64,000 nucleotides of DNA from a virus. The DNA lies in IMG/VR virus record IMGVR_UViG_3300028837_001424, positions 48,592 through 112,591 of that record; one strand, given 5' to 3'. Position 1 is the stretch's first letter; the number at the start of each line of letters is the position of its first letter. The notes under the pieces were generated by a model, which had not been told where the DNA came from, made no database searches, and was given only the letters and a program-made list of their open reading frames with translations. A program made the position numbers and the translations under genes. This document shows, one piece after another, positions 16,477-48,688 of this stretch.

Positions 16477-17531
16477 TGACTTCATACAAAATAGATCTCT
16501 TAGCAACTCATGGAAGTCCATTGGGTGTGACACCGCCAGACATTTATGGACACGGTGTTGGGGGTGCCGAATTAGCCATGATGACTCTAATGCAAACATT
16601 TGCCGAGAGGGGCCATCAGGTGCGCGTTTTCAATGACCCAAAGAAACCTGGGGAATATGATGGTGTGCAATATCTATTCCGTAATCAATTTAAGCCAAAA
16701 GATAAAAGGGATGTTCTTATTCCATTTAGACAACCCAACGCATTAGTTAAGGCTTCCCGTGCCGCAAAGGGAAAATTTTGGTGGTCCACTGATCAATACA
16801 CAATTGGAGATTACGCGAAGTTTTCAAAGGTAGTTGATTTTTGCGTAACGATTAGCCCACATCATACTGAGTACCATAAAAACCGTTATGGTATACCGGA
16901 TGAAAAAATAGGCCATATCGACTTAGGAGTTCGCCTTGCAGACTACGACATTAAAGTAGATAAAGTTCCAGGCAGAATGATATTTTGTAGCGTACCGGCC
17001 AGAGGTCTTATGATCCTTCACTCGGCATGGCCACTTATACGGCGAAAAGCGCCGAAGGCGACTCTGGTTATAACAAGCGATTATGCTCTTTGGGGAGCAG
17101 GCGGCGGAGGGACTGCTAAATGGCGGATTCATTGGGTTGGGATGGAGGGCGTAAATTATGTCGGAAATGTTCCTCGTCGCGAGCTTATCAAATACCAACT
17201 AGAGGCCGAGGTTTTACCATATACTTGTACATATGACGAGCTATTTTGTCTCTCAGTCGCGGAGTGTCAAGTTGCCGGCGCAATGCCTGTTACTACAGAT
17301 GCGTCGGCACTTAAAACCACAAATCAATTCGGAATAAAGGTTTCTGGAGATCCTACAACGCCTCAGTTTGTAGAGGAGTTTTCTGATCGAGTAGCCGCGC
17401 TCGTTACTACAGAGAGACAATTTCTAGAAGCCAGACGCGCAAGCATGATTGCGGCTGCCAAGTCTCGATTTGATTGGCATGTAATTGCCGAAAAGTGGGA
17501 AAAACTGTTTGAGGATGGGAGGATTAAGTGA
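16476..17531 (+). CDS. GT4-like glycosyltransferase
   Basis: 351 residues with a GT-B layout. HGVGGAELAMMTLMQTFAERG is the N-terminal G-rich segment and DELFCLSVAECQVAGAMPV is the donor-site E-x7-E signature of GT4. TAATG overlap at its start and GTGA overlap at its end tie it to the neighbours. Donor unknown. Confidence 0.8.
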   Translation: MTSYKIDLLATHGSPLGVTPPDIYGHGVGGAELAMMTLMQTFAERGHQVRVFNDPKKPGEYDGVQYLFRNQFKPKDKRDVLIPFRQPNALVKASRAAKGKFWWSTDQYTIGDYAKFSKVVDFCVTISPHHTEYHKNRYGIPDEKIGHIDLGVRLADYDIKVDKVPGRMIFCSVPARGLMILHSAWPLIRRKAPKATLVITSDYALWGAGGGGTAKWRIHWVGMEGVNYVGNVPRRELIKYQLEAEVLPYTCTYDELFCLSVAECQVAGAMPVTTDASALKTTNQFGIKVSGDPTTPQFVEEFSDRVAALVTTERQFLEARRASMIAAAKSRFDWHVIAEKWEKLFEDGRIK

Positions 17532-18814
17532 TTTTATTTATTAGCGACTTCGATTTTAGGGGTTCGGGATATCTGCACATAGCAACAAGCTTGTGCAACG
17601 AGTTGGCGACTAGACATGGTAGAAAAGTTACTGCGTTGGGCATCGGCTACGACCGATCACAACACAATTGGCCCTTTTCGATTATTCCAGTTCGTCAGCG
17701 CGAATGGGGAAGACATATTCCAGCCATGGTCCATAACTTTATCCAGATGGGGAAATCTGGCCAATGGGATGAAGTAGAGGCGATTGTTGTTGCCTTAGAT
17801 ATTCCTATGCACGCAAATATGATGAAGATCAAAAGGGAAAACACGCCCTATATAGGCATCTTTCCAATTGAGAGCGGCCCTTTATGCAATACATGGGACT
17901 TTGCTATTGGTCACATGAGCGAACGATTAGTGATTAGCGAGTTCGGAAAGCATATGATTGACGAGTCTGGCACCAATACCTCCGTTTATATACCTATAGG
18001 AATCGATTCAACATCTTGGCGTATGCCATCGGATGTAGAAAGGAAGGCAATTAGGAAAGGGATGGGTTATGATGAAGATCAGTTTGTGGTTCTGACGGTT
18101 GCCGATAATCAAGAGCGCAAAAACTTGAGCATAGCGGCAGATGTTATAGAGCGCCTCAAAAAACATTTAAACGTGAGGTGGTCGTTGGTGACTCGAATCA
18201 ACTGTCCAGTAGGCTGGAAGCTCGACGATCTCATGCATCAATTCGACATAATTGATCAAGTAGATAAATATGATAAGGGACTGGCGTTTGATCGGCTATG
18301 GATGCTATATGCTTCAGCAGACGCATTCCTGTTGACGAGCAAGGCCGAGGGGCTTTGTTTACCAATCCTAGAAGCAATGGCAACTGGGTTGCCAGTTGTG
18401 GCAACCTCTTGTACCGCAATTCCCGAACACATTTGGGAAGATCCTGATTGGAGTCGCTGTAGTGATGGTATCTGGCACAAAGGAAAGCCACGAGGCCGAA
18501 GAGGCTATGGTTTGAACGTGGAATACACAACTATTGATCCTTGGGGTAACTCCGTTAGAAGCTTTCCAGATCCCAAGCACGCCGTAAAATTGCTAAGGAA
18601 GATCGCCAAGATGAAGCCGTCTCAAAAGCAGGATTTCATTCAACCAGGTAGGGACTATGCCGTTGGTCGAACTTGGCAACGAGCAGGAAATGTACTGGAA
18701 GAGACGCTCAAACGGGTGATCAAAAAGGCGCAACCAAAAGATGAGCCTGGAACTGTGATACCATCATCACAGCCAAGGGTGATACCCGAAATAACAGAGG
18801 AGAATTCGGTATGA
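17528..18814 (+). CDS. GT4 family glycosyltransferase
   Basis: 428 residues. SGYLHIATSLCNELATRHG matches the GT4 N-terminal loop, VLTVADNQERKNL the linker strand, and SKAEGLCLPILEAMATGLPVV the E-x7-E donor site. An extra Arg/Gly-rich loop near 315-330 and a charged, Pro-rich tail of about 30 residues follow the catalytic core. ATGA overlap with the next gene. Confidence 0.85.
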   Translation: MILFISDFDFRGSGYLHIATSLCNELATRHGRKVTALGIGYDRSQHNWPFSIIPVRQREWGRHIPAMVHNFIQMGKSGQWDEVEAIVVALDIPMHANMMKIKRENTPYIGIFPIESGPLCNTWDFAIGHMSERLVISEFGKHMIDESGTNTSVYIPIGIDSTSWRMPSDVERKAIRKGMGYDEDQFVVLTVADNQERKNLSIAADVIERLKKHLNVRWSLVTRINCPVGWKLDDLMHQFDIIDQVDKYDKGLAFDRLWMLYASADAFLLTSKAEGLCLPILEAMATGLPVVATSCTAIPEHIWEDPDWSRCSDGIWHKGKPRGRRGYGLNVEYTTIDPWGNSVRSFPDPKHAVKLLRKIAKMKPSQKQDFIQPGRDYAVGRTWQRAGNVLEETLKRVIKKAQPKDEPGTVIPSSQPRVIPEITEENSV

Positions 18815-19710
18815 GCAAGCGCACAAGGGCAAGAAAGCCAAAACAGGGAAGAGCAAGAAAGAAACAAGGACCAGCGCCGAAAACATTGGTTGATATCTGT
18901 ATGCTGGTCTTTGGTGAGTGGGGGTTACTCTCAAAAGCTATCAGGGCGATTCCGGCTGCAGCCGAGGGGCTGAATGCCAGCTATCGAGTCATAGTCGTCG
19001 ATAATGGCACACCTGATTGGGAGACTGAGGAAAAGGAAATTGTAACGGCCAAGGAACAATCAGCACCAATTAAGGAACTGCTTAGGCCACAGGACATCTT
19101 TTTTAGGCTCGATGAAAACAAGGGCTTCCCCGGTGGTTACAACGTCGCGGTCGGCAAGGGGCGCTCGCCGCTTATTCTCATCTTGACTTCAGACGTTTTC
19201 CTGTTTCCTGGCGCGATTACAAAACTTGTTAGCGTTCTGGACGATCCTGAAGTTGGTATCGCAAGCCCGATGTTGCTCTATCCAGCGGACGAATCTCCCC
19301 ACGGGCCTCCTGGTAGCGTGCAGCATGCCGGCATTGGATTCGATATTCGAGGCGATCCCTATCATATTTTCATGGGTTGGCAGCCAGATCATGAGAAGGT
19401 AAATCAGCGTAGAGAGTTACAAGCGGTTACGGGAGCATGTATTCTAACTCGGCGTGCTTTATGGCAAAGAATAGGCGGCTTCTCTGAGCTTTATAATCAG
19501 GGAACATTTGAGGATATGGAGCTTGCATTTGCCATCCGCCAAATGGGCTACAAAATAATTTTCGAGCCAAGCGCGCGAGGTGAACACTATGTTGGAGGTT
19601 CCATAAAACATGGTGCTATGAGGCCGGGTTTTAATCTCGCATTAAATTCAACAATTTTCCGTGGCCGTTGGGCACCATCTCTGAAATGGGATACTTATCG
19701 ATTTTATTGA
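18811..19710 (+). CDS. Family 2 glycosyltransferase, WbbL-like, with basic N-terminus
   Basis: 299 residues. The first 25 are rich in Lys and Arg. Then come RVIVVDNGTPDWE, NKGFPGGYNVAVG, LILTSDVFLF (SDV metal site), VTGACILTRRALWQRIGGF and FEDMELAFAIRQMGYKI, the WbbL order. It is the last gene of the cassette: its TGA at 19708-19710 is followed without a gap by the five-base repeat array. Confidence 0.82.
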   Translation: MSKRTRARKPKQGRARKKQGPAPKTLVDICMLVFGEWGLLSKAIRAIPAAAEGLNASYRVIVVDNGTPDWETEEKEIVTAKEQSAPIKELLRPQDIFFRLDENKGFPGGYNVAVGKGRSPLILILTSDVFLFPGAITKLVSVLDDPEVGIASPMLLYPADESPHGPPGSVQHAGIGFDIRGDPYHIFMGWQPDHEKVNQRRELQAVTGACILTRRALWQRIGGFSELYNQGTFEDMELAFAIRQMGYKIIFEPSARGEHYVGGSIKHGAMRPGFNLALNSTIFRGRWAPSLKWDTYRFY

Positions 19711-19873
19711 CCCTGCCGTGCCAAGCCCAACCTAACATCGCCAGACCTCGCATCGCCAAGCCGTACTCCGCCGCGAACCGCCTAGCCATGCCTCGTTTAT
19801 AATTCATTCCTAGCCTCGCCACACCGCACCAAACACTGCGCCACCTAGCCGGACACCGCCCCACCTTGCCCTA
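19711..19873. repeat. Degenerate pentanucleotide array A (CCNNR)
   Basis: Thirty in-phase five-base units in two blocks: 17 units at 19711-19795 and 13 at 19809-19873, split by an AT-rich 13-mer at 19796-19808 with core ATAATT. All 30 units end in a purine and 23 begin CC, while the middle bases vary. On the minus strand the unit is YNNGG. It starts directly after a glycosyltransferase stop codon and lies 3' of the RAMP-like gene on the other strand. A period of five rules against coding. Confidence 0.85.
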
Positions 19874-19875
19874 AC

Positions 19876-19903
19876 TGGGGAGAGTTCTCACATACTCTCC
19901 CCA
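19876..19903. terminator. Hairpin between convergent genes
   Basis: TGGGGAGAGT at 19876-19885 is perfectly complementary to ACTCTCCCCA at 19894-19903, with an 8-base loop. It sits between array A and the stop of the minus-strand RAMP-like gene, so it could end transcription from either side. A U-tract is lacking on both strands. Confidence 0.55.
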
Positions 19904-19910
19904 ATTCGAA

Positions 19911-20507
19911 TCAAAGTATCGAAACTTCGAATCGTCCATATGGCCCGCCCTTTGCAGGACGCCAATCGCCAAGACCTACAGCGTTGCCAGCCAGTTCGAG
20001 CCAGTGGATGAGTCTGTCTTTATCCACAAACTCTTCGTTGTACTGTAGCTCGCCTTCAATACTCCAATCTTCTGGAATAATTGGGCGAGTGCGCATGACG
20101 GTAGCCTGCCCGACACGAACGCCAATGCGGAAGCGGAAGCGTTCATCTTTCCACAGTTCCTTGGGATCTTTAGGACCGTCGTATTGAAGGACATAGTGGT
20201 GGTCACAAAATATACCAACACCTGCTGCCTTTCCTTCCTTCTCCATACGAGCGGCGCTACCCCTGCCAGCCAAGGCCGCCTTTAGTAATCGACCTGGAAT
20301 GACAGGCACTCCGTCATTGATGTATAGCGCACCCATAAACTCAAGGCGCGCCATTTCCTCGAAATCCTTCTCAGTCTTCTTGCGCTGAGAACTCACCTTC
20401 TTGAGCTTTTTTGCCCAAGTATTCAATGGATCTGCTAGCTGTCCATTGTGGAGGATCAGGGGGCTGATCCCCGTCAAACGAAATTTCAGAGTCTTCAGGA
20501 CGTTCAT
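19911..20507 (-). CDS. RAMP-like phage protein A
   Basis: Start set at ATG 20507; 198 residues. It has FRLTGISPLILHNGQ, then KKTEKDFEEMARLEF, a VIPGRLLKAALAG segment like the RAMP IPGxSLKGALR loop, VMRTRP, and a C-terminal AGNAVGLGDWRP...GRFEV, which resembles the Gly-rich RAMP loop. The same order recurs in 23240-23878. RAMP proteins, including Cas7, bind RNA; that fold here is my inference from motifs. The gene starts 137 bp inside the HNH gene in another frame. The family is frequent in phages from memory but has no assigned role. Confidence 0.7.
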   Translation of the reverse strand: MNVLKTLKFRLTGISPLILHNGQLADPLNTWAKKLKKVSSQRKKTEKDFEEMARLEFMGALYINDGVPVIPGRLLKAALAGRGSAARMEKEGKAAGVGIFCDHHYVLQYDGPKDPKELWKDERFRFRIGVRVGQATVMRTRPIIPEDWSIEGELQYNEEFVDKDRLIHWLELAGNAVGLGDWRPAKGGPYGRFEVSIL

Positions 20508-20805
20508 CGAACTTCTCCAATATCTTAACCGGCAAGCCCGCTTCCACATTGTCCTCTATTATCGTTTCGGCTCGACGTGAGTATCGAAGCCCTCTGATAT
20601 ATGAGGTGAGAAAGTCGTGGCATCGACGGCAGACGGTTATGAGATCCTCACCGATCTCTTCTCCGTATCTTTCGTATGTCTTATGATGCACCTCCAATTC
20701 TTCTACACAAGGAACTCCTGTTAATTCGGCAATGCCGAATATTTTTGAAAGTTGACATTCGTAGTTATCTCTTTCTAGGATTGCTTTTCTTACTAGGTTA
20801 TCCAT
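20371..20805 (-). CDS. HNH endonuclease
   Basis: ATG 20805 has GGAG upstream. 144 residues: AILERDNYECQ, then ELEVHHKTYERYGEE and LITVCRRCHDF give the H-N-H metal finger with paired cysteines. The last 45 residues overlap the RAMP-like gene and are Pro, Ser and acid rich, with no domain visible. It is first in a transcript from the promoter at 21228-21256, after a long leader holding array B. Confidence 0.8.
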   Translation of the reverse strand: MDNLVRKAILERDNYECQLSKIFGIAELTGVPCVEELEVHHKTYERYGEEIGEDLITVCRRCHDFLTSYIRGLRYSRRAETIIEDNVEAGLPVKILEKFDERPEDSEISFDGDQPPDPPQWTASRSIEYLGKKAQEGEFSAQED

Positions 20806-20827
20806 AATGGACTCCGAATAAAGTAAT

Positions 20828-21078
20828 CCTTGCCTCGCCCTGTCGTGCCGGACCTTGCCAAACCGTACCAGACCGCGCCCAAACATACACTGCCAGATCC
20901 AGCCACGCCTGGCCGCGCCTCGAATATAATTCCTTCCCTGCCATGCCCCGCCGTATCCCACCGCGCCAGATCGTGCCTAGCCGGACTTCGCCACGCCAAA
21001 CCACGCCTTGAACATAATTGCTGTCCTTGCCGCGCCCCACCAAACCTCTCCATGCAGCACCAAGCCTGGTCGCGCCAA
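20828..21078. repeat. Degenerate pentanucleotide array B (CCNNR)
   Basis: Three blocks of the same unit as array A: 19 units at 20828-20922, 15 at 20936-21010 and about 11 at 21025-21078. They are separated by AT-rich 13- and 14-mers at 20923-20935 and 21011-21024, both holding ATAATT. All 34 units of the first two blocks end in a purine and 27 begin CC. The array lies in the predicted 5' leader (about 415 bases) of the HNH and RAMP-like transcript on the minus strand. Confidence 0.85.
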
Positions 21079-21227
21079 ACCTTAACTTACCGTGCCTCGA
21101 AACCAAAATCCCGCCACCCATTATTCGAGGTTGCCCTACCATGAACAAGCCAAGCTGTAATGGGAAGCGGGAGTCTGATCTCGATAAAAACAAAAGGCTT
21201 GGTAGATGTCCATGGCAGGTTAGTAGA

Positions 21228-21256
21228 AGTGTACCATAGCGGGCACAGTATGTCAA
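21228..21256 (-). promoter_or_regulatory. Sigma-70 promoter for the HNH/RAMP-like module
   Basis: Read on the minus strand: TTGACA (21251-21256), 17 bp, TACACT (21228-21233), with GG before the -10. The sequence upstream of the -35 matches the shared operator found at 22712, 45049, 46648 and 55755 only in its first bases. Confidence 0.75.
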
Positions 21257-21273
21257 GACCAATGTATTAATCG

Positions 21274-21302
21274 TTTAAAACAACCAAATTCCATGATATA
21301 AT
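21274..21302 (+). promoter_or_regulatory. Extended -10 promoter for structured RNA / basic protein
   Basis: TGATATAAT at 21294-21302 is a perfect extended -10 element; TTTAAA lies 17 bp upstream at 21274-21279. It fires divergently from the HNH-module promoter and would start RNA near 21309. Confidence 0.6.
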
Positions 21303-21308
21303 TATCTT

Positions 21309-21868
21309 TGCACTTTACCAAACCAATCGCTTGGTGGCTCGAAGAATACCGTTCTACGGGTTAAAAAAGGCACACACGACAGGTGGCGGTGTGGTTCCAG
21401 GCGATGGGAAGCATAAGGGTCGTGGAGATCGGGCGAATGCGCCGCCTTACCGATCGAGCGCGACATCGTTGGTAGCTCAAAACTACATATCCAGTAGACG
21501 ACGATGTGCGGGCAAGATTCCCGCCAGTGACGTTGATGCTAGCTAGGCCAGTTAGCGGAGTCCTGTGGCCCGAATAATGCGACTGATTGCCGAGAGGTTG
21601 GGAGGATTGGCATCCTCCCCTGAGCGATTGTGTTTGGTGAAGTCATCAGAAAGGAAATTGGTAAATTTCATGGTAAAATAGATTTGCGAGCGCGCCTCTT
21701 CATTGGGCTATATTTCCCCTAATGATGAGAACTACTCCTGAGTAGCGCTTAGCTCAGGAGGCTAAGCTGGTAACAGCGGACGCGGTAGCCGGTGCCGCTA
21801 TACACAGAGACCGGCAATCACTTTGTAACAAAGGAGGCCAACATGACGAACCTTTAGTGAGGTGAATC
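21309..21868 (+). ncRNA. Probable structured RNA or long leader
   Basis: About 560 bases without a convincing gene, led by the promoter above. Stable hairpins include GCGGG/CCCGC near 21510, GGGAGGA/TCCTCCC near 21600, and CTCCTGAG/CTCAGGAG with a ten-base loop near 21740. A CTTTG/CAAAG hairpin overlaps the AAAGGAGG site at 21832. The size and hairpin density suggest either a large ornate ncRNA or a regulatory 5' UTR for the basic protein that follows. No known RNA class recognised. Confidence 0.45.
21843..21857 (+). CDS. Possible four-residue upstream ORF
   Basis: An AAAGGAGG site precedes ATG 21843, which reads only four codons before TAG at 21855-21857. A second site (GAGGTGA) then leads to the basic protein at 21869. 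The layout resembles a regulatory upstream ORF, though chance is possible. Confidence 0.3.
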   Translation: MTNL

Positions 21869-22072
21869 ATGTCCAAAATTCAGAAAGGCGGTAAGAAAAA
21901 CCGCAAACATGGCCGTGCAGCGCGCAAGCCCAAAACTGCACGGTATCGTATTTCCAATCGTCGAGCAAAAAATAAAACCAAAAGAGTTCTGCGTAGCAGC
22001 GGCAAAAAGGCTGCAAAACAATACGCGCGGGAACAAAACACAACTGGCTATCTACTCAAATTGCTAAGTTGA
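21869..22072 (+). CDS. Small very basic protein
   Basis: 67 residues, about one third Lys or Arg, with KKNRKHGRAARKPK, NRRAKNKTKR and SGKKAAKQYAREQ. Start at ATG 21869 with GAGGTGA eight bases upstream. It could be a nucleic-acid-binding or nucleoid-type protein; no family recognised. A terminator follows at 22140-22173. Confidence 0.6.
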   Translation: MSKIQKGGKKNRKHGRAARKPKTARYRISNRRAKNKTKRVLRSSGKKAAKQYAREQNTTGYLLKLLS

Positions 22073-22139
22073 ACACTGATATGTAACAACTTATTGCACG
22101 ATAACATATTTTATGTTATTGCGAATTTTAATGTTAATG

Positions 22140-22173
22140 AAAAAGCCCCTAAGCTGGAAGCCAGGGACTTTTT
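22140..22173. terminator. Bidirectional intrinsic terminator
   Basis: AAAAAGCCCCT at 22140-22150 pairs with AGGGACTTTTT at 22163-22173 with one mismatch, giving a stem flanked by A and T runs that works on both strands. It separates the basic-protein gene from the convergent exported-protein gene. A second hairpin, ATAACAT/ATGTTAT, lies at 22101-22119. Confidence 0.8.
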
Positions 22174-22226
22174 CGTATCGCGCCATTGTGCCACTCCGGC
22201 ACGGTTACATTATATCACAACTGGGC

Positions 22227-22664
22227 TTACTCAGCGACGATTGGCTCAGGGAGCATTTCTCCCATAATGTCGGTTTCTATTTCGGCCAATCTATAAGTAT
22301 CCGTATCAGTAAGATGCTCAAAACCGACTCGGTAATACGTCCGCACGTTTTGATTAAAGCTAACGTAGTCAATCCAGCCGCGAATAACGTAATAATCAAG
22401 AGCGTTAGGCTCATTCTTGTATTCCTTCATGTCACATTCGGACCACTCTTGAAATACTGCTCCCGTCTTATCCCATAGAATATCTTCGATGGTCTTTTGA
22501 GAGCGGCTGCATAGCTGACCCTTAATTGACGGGCCTTGATCACTGGTAGTTGCTTTACCATTTAGTAAATAATGTGCGGAAGTGGCAACGGCATATGCCA
22601 GCAGAATGAGAGTAAAAACGGCAACATATCTTAGACATCCTTTACCGGTCGTATTTTTCTTCAT
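22227..22664 (-). CDS. Membrane-anchored or exported hypothetical protein
   Basis: 145 residues. Residues 12-33 (YVAVFTLILLAYAVATSAHY) form a signal anchor, after a Lys-rich start. The rest is soluble, with two Cys and a YYVIRGWIDYV strand. No family recognised. It has its own promoter at 22688-22716 with the shared operator and may act at the host envelope (inference). Confidence 0.6.
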   Translation of the reverse strand: MKKNTTGKGCLRYVAVFTLILLAYAVATSAHYLLNGKATTSDQGPSIKGQLCSRSQKTIEDILWDKTGAVFQEWSECDMKEYKNEPNALDYYVIRGWIDYVSFNQNVRTYYRVGFEHLTDTDTYRLAEIETDIMGEMLPEPIVAE

Positions 22665-22687
22665 GGTATTTATCCTTTACTGTGATT

Positions 22688-22716
22688 ATGCTACCCGATA
22701 CGGTACAGTATGTCAA
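22688..22716 (-). promoter_or_regulatory. Sigma-70 promoter with shared operator
   Basis: Minus strand: TTGACA (22711-22716), 17 bp, TAGCAT (22688-22693), preceded by GGG. The 21-bp operator at 22712-22732 covers the -35 and extends upstream; it holds two TAC-containing half sites eight bases apart and recurs at 45049, 46648 and 55755. Confidence 0.75.
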
Positions 22717-22742
22717 GTTACCTTGGTACTATCAATAAATAA

Positions 22743-22768
22743 AGAGGCGGGTATATATACCTGCCTCT
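22743..22768 (-). terminator. Intrinsic terminator of the GIY-YIG/RAMP-like transcript
   Basis: AGAGGC...GCCTCT at 22743-22748 and 22763-22768 form a nearly perfect stem with the inner GGTA/TACC arm. On the minus strand a T-rich stretch follows. It would end the transcript that carries array C just before the next promoter. Confidence 0.75.
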
Positions 22769-22806
22769 TGTGCTGTCTGGCAACCAGACGATCACCCACC
22801 ACTGAT

Positions 22807-22859
22807 TGTCAACTTATAAGTTGTCAAATGATGATGGAATGACAACAAATATGTTATCA
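22807..22859. promoter_or_regulatory. Two matching palindromic operator-like sites
   Basis: Two 20-bp palindromes of the form TGWCAAC-N6-GTTRTCA at 22807-22826 and 22840-22859, with centres 33 bp apart (about three DNA turns). The first is a near-perfect dyad with a 14-bp perfect core. The spacing suggests co-operative binding of a dimeric protein. They lie at the 3' end of the 22882-23076 gene, so their target is unclear. Confidence 0.5.
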
Positions 22860-22881
22860 ACAACTAAAGCTCAATGCGATT

Positions 22882-23076
22882 TTAGATCTCATTGATAAAT
22901 TGTCCAAGTCGTTCAACTTTTTCTTGAACAACACTAAAGTTTTTTGCGACACGAGCAACATCTCCAAAAATCAAGCCCCTATTTGCTTTATCAAGAGCTT
23001 TATTAATGTCTTGATACAAGCTCTTGGCAGTCTCGATGGGTTTGTAATTGGCACAGTTCTCACAAGTTTTGTTCAT
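22882..23076 (-). CDS. Small CxxC protein
   Basis: 64 residues, start ATG 23076 with GGAGGT eight bases upstream. Residues 4-9 are a CENC pair; the rest is helical (ALDKANRGL, VVQEKVERLGQFI). It is the last gene of the array C transcript and begins 25 bases after the array. Role unknown. Confidence 0.55.
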   Translation of the reverse strand: MNKTCENCANYKPIETAKSLYQDINKALDKANRGLIFGDVARVAKNFSVVQEKVERLGQFINEI

Positions 23077-23100
23077 CTTAGTTACCTCCGATGTAAAAAG

Positions 23101-23235
23101 CTTTGCTATGCTTTGCTCTGCTTTGCTGCGCTCTGCTGCGCTGCGCTTTGCTAAGCTTTGCTGGGCTCGGCTACGCTGCGCTTGGCTGCGCTCCGCTTGG
23201 CTAGGCTCGGCTGCGCTCTGCTGCGCTGCGCTACG
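23101..23235. repeat. Perfect degenerate pentanucleotide array C (CTNNG x 27)
   Basis: Twenty-seven consecutive five-base units, every one of the form CTNNG on the plus strand (CNNAG on the minus strand), with no insertion or deletion. The two middle bases vary freely. It begins four bases after the stop of RAMP-like gene B and ends before the ribosome site of the 22882-23076 gene. Unlike arrays A and B it has no AT-rich punctuation and uses CT in place of CC. Confidence 0.95.
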
Positions 23236-23239
23236 ACCA

Positions 23240-23878
23240 CTATTCCATTGTTACAGGGTTAGTATCCTTCTCAAGAGTTTGCACAGTCCCGATTTCTTTA
23301 ACTTTCTTCCATTCAACTACTTCAAATGAACCAAAGGTTGGTCTATAGGCACATAGCCCTACGAATATACCGCCACGATTAAACCAATCCTCGGCCTTGG
23401 AAATGCTGAAATACTCATTTTCGTAAATGCTTATATTGAATTTTAATGACCAGGGCAAATCCAAAACGGGACGACTCACATTGACCCTAACTTTTGGGTT
23501 TGGCCTTGCCATTCTTGTATCTATGTAAAATGGAGACTTATTCAAATCTTCGGCGACCTCCAGTTTTACATTGCTTTCTTCGTGTTCTTTTCCATTTTGG
23601 AAAGGAATATATGCGGGTTGCACAGAGATACAACCACGGATCACTGGAGACAAAGTTTTCCACTCTTTGCTATTTACAAACATCCGTAGGCAGGAATGGC
23701 TATCTTTACTCGCCAGAAAGCCTTCGATGCTTGAGCTTGGCAAGCAGACGGTTTTGCCGTCGCGGGGGTCGAGGTAAATTTTTTGCTCGACGGGCGTTTC
23801 GTCCTGCGAGACCCATTTGTCGAACATGATCGGCGTCAGACCGTTTAAGACTACTTGTACTTTCACCATGTTTAGCAT
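23240..23878 (-). CDS. RAMP-like phage protein B
   Basis: 212 residues, ATG 23878 preceded by AAAGGAG. It follows RAMP-like A in order: VVLNGLTPIMFDKW, then CLPSSSIEGFLAS (the IP..S.KG-like loop), SRPVLD, and a C-terminal GGIFVGLCAYRPTFGSFEV. Overall identity is low but these anchors and their spacing agree, so the two are distant paralogues. It starts 173 bp inside the GIY-YIG gene and is followed four bases later by array C. RNA binding is inferred from fold resemblance only. Confidence 0.65.
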   Translation of the reverse strand: MLNMVKVQVVLNGLTPIMFDKWVSQDETPVEQKIYLDPRDGKTVCLPSSSIEGFLASKDSHSCLRMFVNSKEWKTLSPVIRGCISVQPAYIPFQNGKEHEESNVKLEVAEDLNKSPFYIDTRMARPNPKVRVNVSRPVLDLPWSLKFNISIYENEYFSISKAEDWFNRGGIFVGLCAYRPTFGSFEVVEWKKVKEIGTVQTLEKDTNPVTME

Positions 23879-24236
23879 TGTTCTTGCTCCTTTCGCTTAT
23901 AAAGCGGCGCGACTGGTCAACCAATTCTCGGCGCGCATCACTTATTCTTTCTATTAGAGGTTGCTCTTTTCCTTCCAACCAGTTTATTACGAGCTTTAGA
24001 ATTTCATCATCAAGTTTAAATATCTCCCGATCATCAAAGCAATAAGAAGCCAGTAGGCACTTAAGTTCATCTTCGACTTTCAGGGGTTCATCAACTAGGC
24101 TGGCGTGGCATATTGTTAATTTGCTGTTGGCGGCTAAAAAAGCACGATAGCGCCTATTGAAATCGTCGGCTTTTCCTATTTTGAATAGATTATCAAATCC
24201 GAGGTCAAATAGGTAAACGTAGCCGCTAGACATCAT
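23706..24236 (-). CDS. GIY-YIG-like (T5orf172/MUG113-type) nuclease
   Basis: 176 residues. GYVYLFDLGFDNLFKIGKADDFNRRYRAF is the GIY-YIG-like core of the T5orf172 group (YVYL, FKIGKA, R.YR). VEDELKCLLASYCF and REIFKLDDE continue that domain. After residue 100 it becomes helical and then basic (ARRAKNLPRPPRRQNR), the basic part overlapping RAMP-like gene B in another frame. First gene after the promoter at 24257-24285. Confidence 0.75.
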   Translation of the reverse strand: MMSSGYVYLFDLGFDNLFKIGKADDFNRRYRAFLAANSKLTICHASLVDEPLKVEDELKCLLASYCFDDREIFKLDDEILKLVINWLEGKEQPLIERISDARRELVDQSRRFISERSKNNAKHGESTSSLKRSDADHVRQMGLAGRNARRAKNLPRPPRRQNRLLAKLKHRRLSGE

Positions 24237-24256
24237 TCTCCTTCATTTGTAACTTA

Positions 24257-24285
24257 ATCATATCACATACTTGATTATGAGGCAA
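24257..24285 (-). promoter_or_regulatory. Promoter for the GIY-YIG/RAMP-like module
   Basis: Minus strand: TTGCCT (24280-24285), 17 bp, TATGAT (24257-24262). The gene starts at 24236 after AAGGAG. No shared operator is seen here. Confidence 0.65.
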
Positions 24286-24392
24286 ATTTAAATAGACGGT
24301 GCAAATGCTCTACTAACCCATTACAAAAATGGCTAATATAAAGTCGAATTTGAAGTTTTTTCGTCGCGGCAATTTGTGGAGGGATGTGAGAA

Positions 24393-47960: not shown

Positions 47961-48688
47961 TGAATTTCGGTAGTCTATTCTCTGGAGTTGATGGCCTCGG
48001 ATTAGGACTCGAATGGGCTAGTATGACTTGCGCGTGGCAAGTAGAAATAGATGATTGGCGTCGATGGGTACTTGAAATGCACTGGCCAGACGTGCCGAAA
48101 TATGGAGATGTAAGAAATGTCGGACGACACAACCTTGAGCCAGTTGACCTTATTGCTGGCGGATTCCCTTGCCAACCTTACAGTGTTGCCGGGAAGCGAA
48201 GAGGCGCAGAAGATGACCGCAATCTCTGGCCAGAATTTAGCCGAGTTATTAAAGAGATGCAACCAAGATACGTCCTTGCTGAGAACGTTCCTGGAATCAT
48301 CACCACCTATCTCGACACAGTGCTATCTGACTTGGAAAGTCAGGGCTACACCTGCGGGACGTTTAATATTCCAGCTTGTGCCTTCGGCGCACCACATAGA
48401 CGGTATCGCATCTTCGTTGTGGCCTACTCCGGCAGCAAGAGATGGCTATTTGATAAGCCGGATTTCGATAGCGTCTCGAGCAAAGACGTATGGCGAACGC
48501 ATGAACAGAAGCCAATTAGGGGAAGTATTAGCGGGCGATTACGGTTGGGGCCACCACCCAACGTTCAGCGAGTGGATGATGGGTCTGAGTTTGGGATTCA
48601 CCGACTTAGAGCGTTAGGTGACGCAGTCGTGCCACAAGTAGCCGAATGGATTGGTAGAAGGATAATTGAATTTTCGGAGGGCACATGA
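47960..48688 (+). CDS. DNA cytosine C5 methyltransferase
   Basis: 242 residues from GTG 47960. Motif I NFGSLFSGVDGLGLGLEWA, motif IV GGFPCQPYSVAG with catalytic Cys71, motif VI AENV at 107-110, motif VIII GAPHRRYRIFVV, motif X LGDAVVPQVAEWIG. It has a short target-recognition region. All catalytic blocks are intact, so it should methylate C5 of cytosine and protect phage DNA. A second long reading frame overlaps it (48117-48617). Confidence 0.92.
   Translation: MNFGSLFSGVDGLGLGLEWASMTCAWQVEIDDWRRWVLEMHWPDVPKYGDVRNVGRHNLEPVDLIAGGFPCQPYSVAGKRRGAEDDRNLWPEFSRVIKEMQPRYVLAENVPGIITTYLDTVLSDLESQGYTCGTFNIPACAFGAPHRRYRIFVVAYSGSKRWLFDKPDFDSVSSKDVWRTHEQKPIRGSISGRLRLGPPPNVQRVDDGSEFGIHRLRALGDAVVPQVAEWIGRRIIEFSEGT
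48117..48617 (+). CDS. Overlapping alternative-frame ORF inside the C5 methyltransferase gene
   Basis: 166 codons in another frame of the methyltransferase gene. It reads CYLTWKVRATPAGRLIFQL, LWPTPAARDG, NRSQLGEVLAG and FSEWMMGLSLGFTDLE. From memory these phrases recur in annotated phage and methyltransferase-associated proteins, so the frame may be a true overlapping gene. It could equally arise because conserved methyltransferase codons shift into similar peptides. No ribosome site is clear. Confidence 0.3.
   Translation: MSDDTTLSQLTLLLADSLANLTVLPGSEEAQKMTAISGQNLAELLKRCNQDTSLLRTFLESSPPISTQCYLTWKVRATPAGRLIFQLVPSAHHIDGIASSLWPTPAARDGYLISRISIASRAKTYGERMNRSQLGEVLAGDYGWGHHPTFSEWMMGLSLGFTDLER

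Follow-up and report, generated by a model that had tools for sequence, protein, structure and literature searches.

Pentamer arrays beside a RAMP-fold gene of a virus as probable guide RNAs of a VIPR system, with two Vipr residues that track the repeat code

The stretch of virus DNA analysed here (64,000 nucleotides, positions 48,592 to 112,591 of the IMG/VR record IMGVR_UViG_3300028837_001424; the window) carries two arrays of CCNNR pentamers, A and B, on either side of a gene for a RAMP-fold protein, P0001. Arrays A and B are very probably guide-RNA (vrRNA) arrays of a phage-borne VIPR (Viral Interference Programmable Repeat) system. VIPR was described in an April 2026 preprint: a phage RAMP protein, Vipr, works with guide RNAs made of YNNGG repeats, and seven types are distinguished (PMC13142463). 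The guides use their NN pairs to recognise double-stranded DNA, one base being skipped between pairs, and rival phages are repressed; the vrRNAs consist of 9-16 YNNGG repeats and flank the vipr gene (PMC13142463). VIPR is thus an already known system to which the present locus adds a member; a literature search found no VIPR paper beyond this preprint. A second module in the same window has a different unit, CNNAG, and across related loci two Vipr residues appear to set the fourth base of the unit.

On the minus strand the plus-strand CCNNR becomes YNNGG, and the array units were parsed in this orientation. In minus-strand order the locus consists of the following features:
21025-21099, minus strand: vrRNA block B3, 15 YNNGG units, presumably the first block to be transcribed
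20936-21010, minus strand: vrRNA block B2, 15 units, with a capsid-motif reading
20828-20922, minus strand: vrRNA block B1, 19 units
20371-20805, minus strand: HNH endonuclease-like gene (P0002, from an internal ATG), overlapping the start of vipr; candidate accessory (vap) gene
19911-20507 (the listed open reading frame, ORF, runs to 20549), minus strand: vipr gene 1 (P0001), RAMP-fold, phrog_4652, R139/D181, GG-type
19873-19906, minus strand: strong hairpin (z -4.9, folding against shuffles), after the stop codon of vipr and before block A2
19809-19873, minus strand: vrRNA block A2, 13 units, with a Vipr glycine-loop reading
19711-19795, minus strand: vrRNA block A1, 17 units

The two arrays are separated by about 950 bases with two genes, and the array strand is the coding strand of both. 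A search of the window for four consecutive CCNNR units, with one mismatch allowed, gave 48 matches versus 1.73 +- 1.41 expected and a maximum of 6 in 100 shuffles, so that chance is excluded for the arrays; 45 of the 48 matches fall within A and B. The NN pair varies from unit to unit, whereas GG and Y are kept: the Y is retained in all 64 units of A1, A2, B1 and B2. On the plus strand all 64 of these units end in a purine, as a preliminary description of the same DNA, made from the sequence without database searches, had stated, and 50 start with CC (most, in that description); in B3 the corresponding counts are 14/15 and 12/15. The tracts of A and B have 13, 15, 15, 17 and 19 units, and array C of the second module has 27, uninterrupted. 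The block sizes given earlier (17, 13, 19 and 15 units) were right for four blocks, but the fifth, put at about 11, is B3 with 15.

P0001 belongs to PHROG 4652, a family listed there with function not known. Its closest solved protein by sequence is PDB entry 36pp, 'SUSP1 Vipr protein' (E 2.1e-29; 2.8e-46 for the family profile and 6e-42 for a profile led by P0003, the Vipr of the second module). The AlphaFold2 model of P0001 has a mean pLDDT of 97.3 (75 aligned sequences); a Foldseek search of the PDB with this model gave CRISPR RAMP chains throughout the best 50 rows, and VIA-align superposed it on a Csm-complex chain with Z 12.0 and an rmsd of 3.3 over 153 residues. By its predicted model P0001 is a Cas7/Csm3-fold RAMP, and by sequence it is homologous to SUSP1 Vipr. 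The assignment of the arrays to a RAMP-like gene, proposed in the preliminary description, is borne out by this 36pp homologue with arrays A and B on its flanks. When P0001 was used as single query in viral contigs, four stretches fitted a pattern and none was confirmed.

The coupling of such arrays to vipr extends far beyond the window. Viral contigs were scanned for (CCNNR)8 alone and for eight CTNNG units, which gave at least 120 and at least 119 loci. A vipr gene is present in 88 of the 120 listed CCNNR loci, at a median distance of 72 bases, and in 86 of these 88 the sense strand of the array is the gene strand; among the listed CTNNG loci 39 of 119 have vipr. When the listed loci are divided by the diversity of their NN pairs, vipr is found at 127 of 171 degenerate arrays (88/117 CC, 39/54 CT) and at none of the 68 low-diversity repeats. 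This agrees with the earlier view of a composite element that is not a plain microsatellite. Of the 44 listed degenerate arrays without vipr, 25 are no more than 1.5 kb away from the end of the locus. In the converse direction, LESphi2, wV8, LittleE, MakoManhole and DSL-LC04, the first five phages found by protein similarity alone, all have YNNGG tracts near the gene (5/5). Vipr searches in 369 and 394 genomes of two classes returned one weak partial and one full match, and a further set returned none (0/7). Arrays of this kind can be found in bulk through pattern search alone.

Degenerate arrays with no detectable vipr and more than 1.5 kb from the locus end make up 16/117 CC and 3/54 CT loci among those listed (L014, L028, L036, L062, L066, L092, L105 and others); these are possibly orphan guide arrays, or their Viprs may have escaped detection. 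Plasmids of Bradyrhizobium and Azospirillum and a phage-like plasmid of Rhodoplanes also carry vipr genes with YNNGG tracts nearby (L384-L389, L390), and L386 has an annotated HNH gene just upstream of vipr.

The second module of the window lies upstream of array B on the same strand and consists of:
23101-23235, minus strand: array C, 27 CNNAG units without insert; guide array of module 2
23240-23878, minus strand: vipr gene 2 (P0003), AG-type; its product is RAMP-fold and divergent, and residues 139 and 181 are V and A
23706-24236, minus strand: GIY-YIG / T5orf172 nuclease-like gene (P0004), directly upstream; candidate accessory gene of module 2

Array C belongs to this second, divergent Vipr. 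P0003 is a distant member of PHROG 4652 (E 8e-7), and its model, built with its own relatives (pLDDT 89.5), aligns to a Csm-complex chain with Z 12.8 and an rmsd of 4.2 over 165 residues (VIA-align). The CNNAG unit may be the 'related consensus' of the preprint or else another variant. With GG units beside P0001 and AG units beside P0003, each module has its own array code, as had been suspected.

To relate the code to the protein, 110 Viprs (80% identity reduction) were compared, with residues numbered from the ATG at 20507. The loci L005-L248 had been picked by array pattern, and the proportions of GG and AG are therefore not natural; other dyads were sought only within 2 kb of these genes. 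One unit type clearly dominates each locus on its strand: GG in 83, AG in 24, unclear in 3, with two GG loci additionally holding 5-6 units of another dyad. L018, L072 and L183, with arrays only on the other strand or an unclear unit, were excluded, leaving 107. Among the 155 alignment columns screened, two show the strongest association with the unit type: 139 (VMRTRP) and 181, which lies in the glycine-loop (GLGDWRP). Residue 181 is acidic in 74/83 GG loci and in 0/24 AG loci; residue 139 is basic in 77/83 and 1/24, respectively. At least one of the two features is present in all 83 GG loci, and neither in 23 of the 24 AG loci. The SUSP1-like Vipr of wV8 has S at 139 and D at 181. In the comparison of array type with the subtype of the adjacent RAMP-like gene, which the preliminary description had suggested, unit type tracks residues 139 and 181 over the 107 loci.

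On the tree the AG label requires at least 9-11 changes, versus 22 with shuffled labels, which means that the code is clustered, yet has switched many times. In the first tree, built with both columns included, there are 9 starred independent pairs: 7.8 (residue 181) and 7.1 (residue 139) change in the same direction as the unit and 0 in the opposite one (median p 0.008 and 0.016). When both columns were masked and a quicker tree was made, 5 starred pairs were left, of which 4.9 and 3.7 go in the same direction and 0 in the opposite; here the p values of 0.06 and 0.13 fall short of significance. The window agrees with the rule (P0001 R/D with GG, P0003 V/A with AG), and so do all 13 further Viprs that were not selected by array, each with an acidic 181 and GG units and with no AG case among them; six of these have just 4-5 units per unbroken run, and one, L381, is closely related to wV8 from the first set. 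Another of the 13, L390, was found with an AG-type query (51% identity), yet has R/E and GG units. Two other loci gave no reading: L335, not array-selected, has no array in the locus, and L382 is too partial.

On this strong correlation across sequences, the two Vipr residues appear to set the fourth unit base as G or A. Arginine and aspartate are common guanine readers, and we infer that residues 139 and 181 contact that base. We are evenly divided over the fuller proposal, a two-residue switch in which a basic 139 with an acidic 181 reads G and a small uncharged 181 with a non-basic 139 reads A; phages would have flipped it many times, so that a rival's Vipr could not use the guides, and it would let one phage, such as the present one, run two non-interfering VIPRs, one of them aimed at rival vipr genes. 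The main text of the VIPR preprint holds no such residue rule, and the words arginine, aspart- and acidic are absent from it (the supplement lay outside this check; PMC13142463). In the three excluded loci the usual unit reads opposite to the vipr strand, and all three Viprs have R139 and an acidic 181; the unit of L183:1413-1732, which reads TNNGC in the direction of vipr, may be a third type.

Possible targets were read from the tracts as NN plus one free base, following the published one-base-skip rule; the free base often falls on the third codon position (PMC13142463). Read in this way, B2 spells [KN]V[FL]VDPYTLAGTG[IM][SR], a motif of major capsid proteins. Eight B2 units, searched exactly in viral contigs, gave 30 matches, and the same units reordered gave 1 (one shuffle only). 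VDPYTLAG is read in 26 of the 30, 24 times in frames of more than 300 codons and twice in short frames with stops; the remaining matches are on the other strand or in another frame. All eight B2-hit proteins tested match Pfam Phage_capsid and all nine tested match PHROGs major head protein families. The flanking units agree at just 33% outside the searched part, hence none of the 30 contigs is a full target. As a reading, the major capsid gene of a rival phage is a well-supported predicted target of B2.

Block A2 reads [SR][KN]GGPYG[SR][FL]AV[DE]Y, a Vipr glycine-loop motif (the loop of P0001 itself is AKGGPYGRFEVSI). Eight A2 units are matched by only three viral contigs, one of which (L335) has the match in vipr at the glycine-loop, with 19/26 bases; the phage's own vipr agrees at 18/26 bases and ties for the best site in its own genome. 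Because 19 bases were also reached by 5 of 200 shuffled orders of A2 and a scan of bacterial genome contigs gave 38 matches with 0 in a vipr gene, both of which weigh against this reading, a rival's vipr gene as predicted target of A2 is the weaker case and only a lead. A tblastn search with four inferred target peptides found no match in phages.

Several further points speak against the identification of the arrays as guides. No target of full length turned up: over 10 units B2 has 0 matches in genome contigs; the window blocks, searched at skips 0-3 in 4.66 million bases, found nothing above shuffled controls except themselves; A1 and B3 gave 36 and 20 matches over several families, none of them dominant; and a test of strand consistency came out positive with the GG arrays (z 3.1) and not with the AG arrays (z -1.8). 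The 17- and 19-unit blocks exceed the published 9-16, the inserts between blocks are without the folded 3' tail of the SUSP1 vrRNAs, and the arrays are known here from DNA sequence alone. Array architecture differs among the seven VIPR types (PMC13142463), and the structured 3' tail would therefore be particular to the SUSP1 clade rather than general to VIPR. In a wider search of 420 of 480 array blocks against 6.2 million bases (both strands, skips 0-2), three real blocks reached E < 0.01 and none E < 1e-4; two of the three did so at skip 2, one at skip 0 and none at skip 1.

Within the arrays, successive blocks are parted by short AT-rich inserts:
21011-21024, minus strand: insert between B3 and B2, 14 bases, plus strand AACATAATTGCTGT, sense ACAGCAATTATGTT
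20923-20935, minus strand: insert between B2 and B1, 13 bases, plus strand AATATAATTCCTT, sense AAGGAATTATATT; no stable fold
19796-19808, minus strand: insert between A2 and A1, 13 bases, plus strand TTTATAATTCATT, sense AATGAATTATAAA

The length of 13-14 bases and the ATAATT core (present in 3/3) had been described correctly, but there are three inserts and not four. The core ATAATTNNNTCC has 31 one-mismatch matches in the window versus 25.7 expected, which is not unusual by itself, and is notable solely through its place between blocks; the one insert that was folded has no stable structure (z +1.0). In the nearest relatives checked the spacers are different or missing: the nearest, L007 (50% identity), has seven tracts with the 4-base spacers ACAT, ACTT or ATTT, the L050 spacer is a single A, L209 has none across 60 units, and the spacers of L141 and wV8 are longer and hairpin-like. 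The insert is thus not the conserved element for which it had been taken, an outcome that the preliminary description had itself named as refuting, and is specific to the present phage, in which we infer that it divides successive guides and marks their boundaries. The inserts may be start, cleavage or protein sites, or belong to the guide ends. Of the preliminary description as a whole, the composite nature, the link to a RAMP-like gene and the module-specific code have stood and the conserved insert has not; the probable identity of the arrays as guide RNAs had been missed.

In wV8 (L126; 3768-3825 and 5161-5218) an annotated direct repeat, DR_4, sits between YNNGG tracts and is probably the shared vrRNA tail. 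The spacers of LittleE (L127) and MakoManhole (L128), judged by eye, and those of L042 and L010 resemble tRNA 3' halves with a GGGTTCGA-type arm, which suggests that tRNA processing is used; Rfam did not confirm it. Rfam searches gave 0 matches on the window (gathering score), on 19600-24300 (E up to 1) and on eight loci, and a tRNA scan of the window found none. Some 600-700 noncoding bases (21180-21860) with no Rfam match separate array B from an ORF of 66 residues, basic in composition (about 21870-22073, plus strand); within them, 21700-21849 folds somewhat better than shuffles (z -2.2).

That the arrays are simple pentanucleotide microsatellites, or functionless low-complexity DNA, has a virtually negligible chance. 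Their five-base periodicity would fit, and many (CTCTG)n-type repeats in viral contigs are indeed plain microsatellites, but the NN positions vary while GG and Y are kept, and the strand agrees with that of the gene in 86 of 88 listed CC loci; the confinement of vipr to degenerate arrays (127/171 listed, against 0/68 of low diversity) rules this reading out. It is very improbable that the arrays act as DNA, the pentamers being bound as duplex by Vipr or another protein or serving as decoys for host defence, with RNA not the active form. Knowledge of the arrays from DNA sequence only, and inserts that are unfolded AT-rich stretches, would suit such sites. However, RAMPs are known to bind RNA, spacers like hairpins or tRNA 3' halves in several relatives suggest a transcribed RNA, and readings of coding motifs in B2 and A2 would be unexpected for plain binding sites; moreover, the vrRNAs of SUSP1 and P. 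fulva are expressed and co-purify with Vipr (PMC13142463).

Decay is a somewhat more serious alternative, and still unlikely: the arrays would be relics of a VIPR, with non-canonical units such as CGGTT, TATGT and TAAGT as mutations, and GG is in fact missing from 14 of the 64 units of the first four blocks. Yet the reading frames of P0001 and of the HNH gene are open, the Y stands in 64/64 units and B2 still gives a capsid-like motif. We find it doubtful, while conceivable and compatible with reading the arrays as guides, that the insert is a promoter and each vrRNA starts at its own -10-like sequence (TATATT, TATAAA or TATGTT in sense direction). A near -10 hexamer is present on the sense strand of all three inserts; against this, inspection by eye of the bases upstream of one insert showed no -35-like hexamer (no promoter scan was made), and the 4 bases between blocks in L007 are too short for a promoter. 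As a general rule, a promoter-only role of the insert is ruled out by the 4-base or absent spacers of relatives. A G-quadruplex as common principle was discarded by reasoning only, as AG-type arrays have no GG.

Concerning the neighbouring genes, HNH relatives directly upstream of vipr are also found in L007, L083 and L030. For P0002 NCBIfam gave just a weak IscB HNH match (25.5 bits versus a cut-off of 175), PADLOC assigned 0 families to five proteins, and phmmer found in the window no relative of the downstream partner gene of wV8 and LESphi2. On the other strand, the genes of two glycosyltransferases (GT group 1 and family 2; 17528-19710) end directly before array A.

If the arrays are VIPR guides, as we consider very probable, the mechanism can be proposed by analogy with other VIPRs, for which guide expression, binding by Vipr, DNA recognition and repression have been demonstrated (PMC13142463). 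The minus-strand region would be transcribed as one or several transcripts carrying the guides, and Vipr would coat each tract. The NN pairs would then recognise double-stranded DNA of a rival phage, with matched pairs one unread base apart, and the complex would block transcription of the rival's genes. The HNH and GIY-YIG genes upstream may add cutting; nucleases or helicases are assigned to types III-V (PMC13142463).

The authors of the preprint regard VIPR as the first guide system to use a non-contiguous code, and as possibly ancestral to CRISPR (PMC13142463). The present analysis contributes a phage whose two VIPR modules differ in unit code, the readings of B2 and A2 as capsid and vipr motifs, and the residue rule, a simple and testable link of two Vipr residues to one fixed repeat base. 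If this rule is true, guide/protein pairs that do not cross-react can be distinguished by sequence, and unannotated vipr genes can be typed from sequence alone.

Among known systems, the type II VIPR of SUSP1 is alike in its homologous RAMP-fold Vipr, in sense-strand YNNGG tracts on both sides of vipr and in a minimal, phage-borne locus. Unlike SUSP1, the present phage has an HNH gene upstream that overlaps vipr, its tracts reach 19 units, and its spacers are unfolded and 13-14 bases long, whereas SUSP1 has a folded, invariable 3' tail. Array C with P0003 is the same kind of locus as the VIPR with 'a related consensus' (PMC13142463), the unit being changed to CNNAG. No CRISPR repeat-spacer array or cas operon is present in the examined stretch, in which the neighbours tested are nuclease-like genes, glycosyltransferases and unknowns. 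With the RAMPs of CRISPR class 1 (Csm3/Cas7) the two Viprs share the fold (Z 12.0 for P0001, 12.8 for P0003) and, by analogy, the binding of a guide RNA by the protein; in contrast to CRISPR class 1, the guide of the present phage is a five-base repeat with two reading bases per unit.
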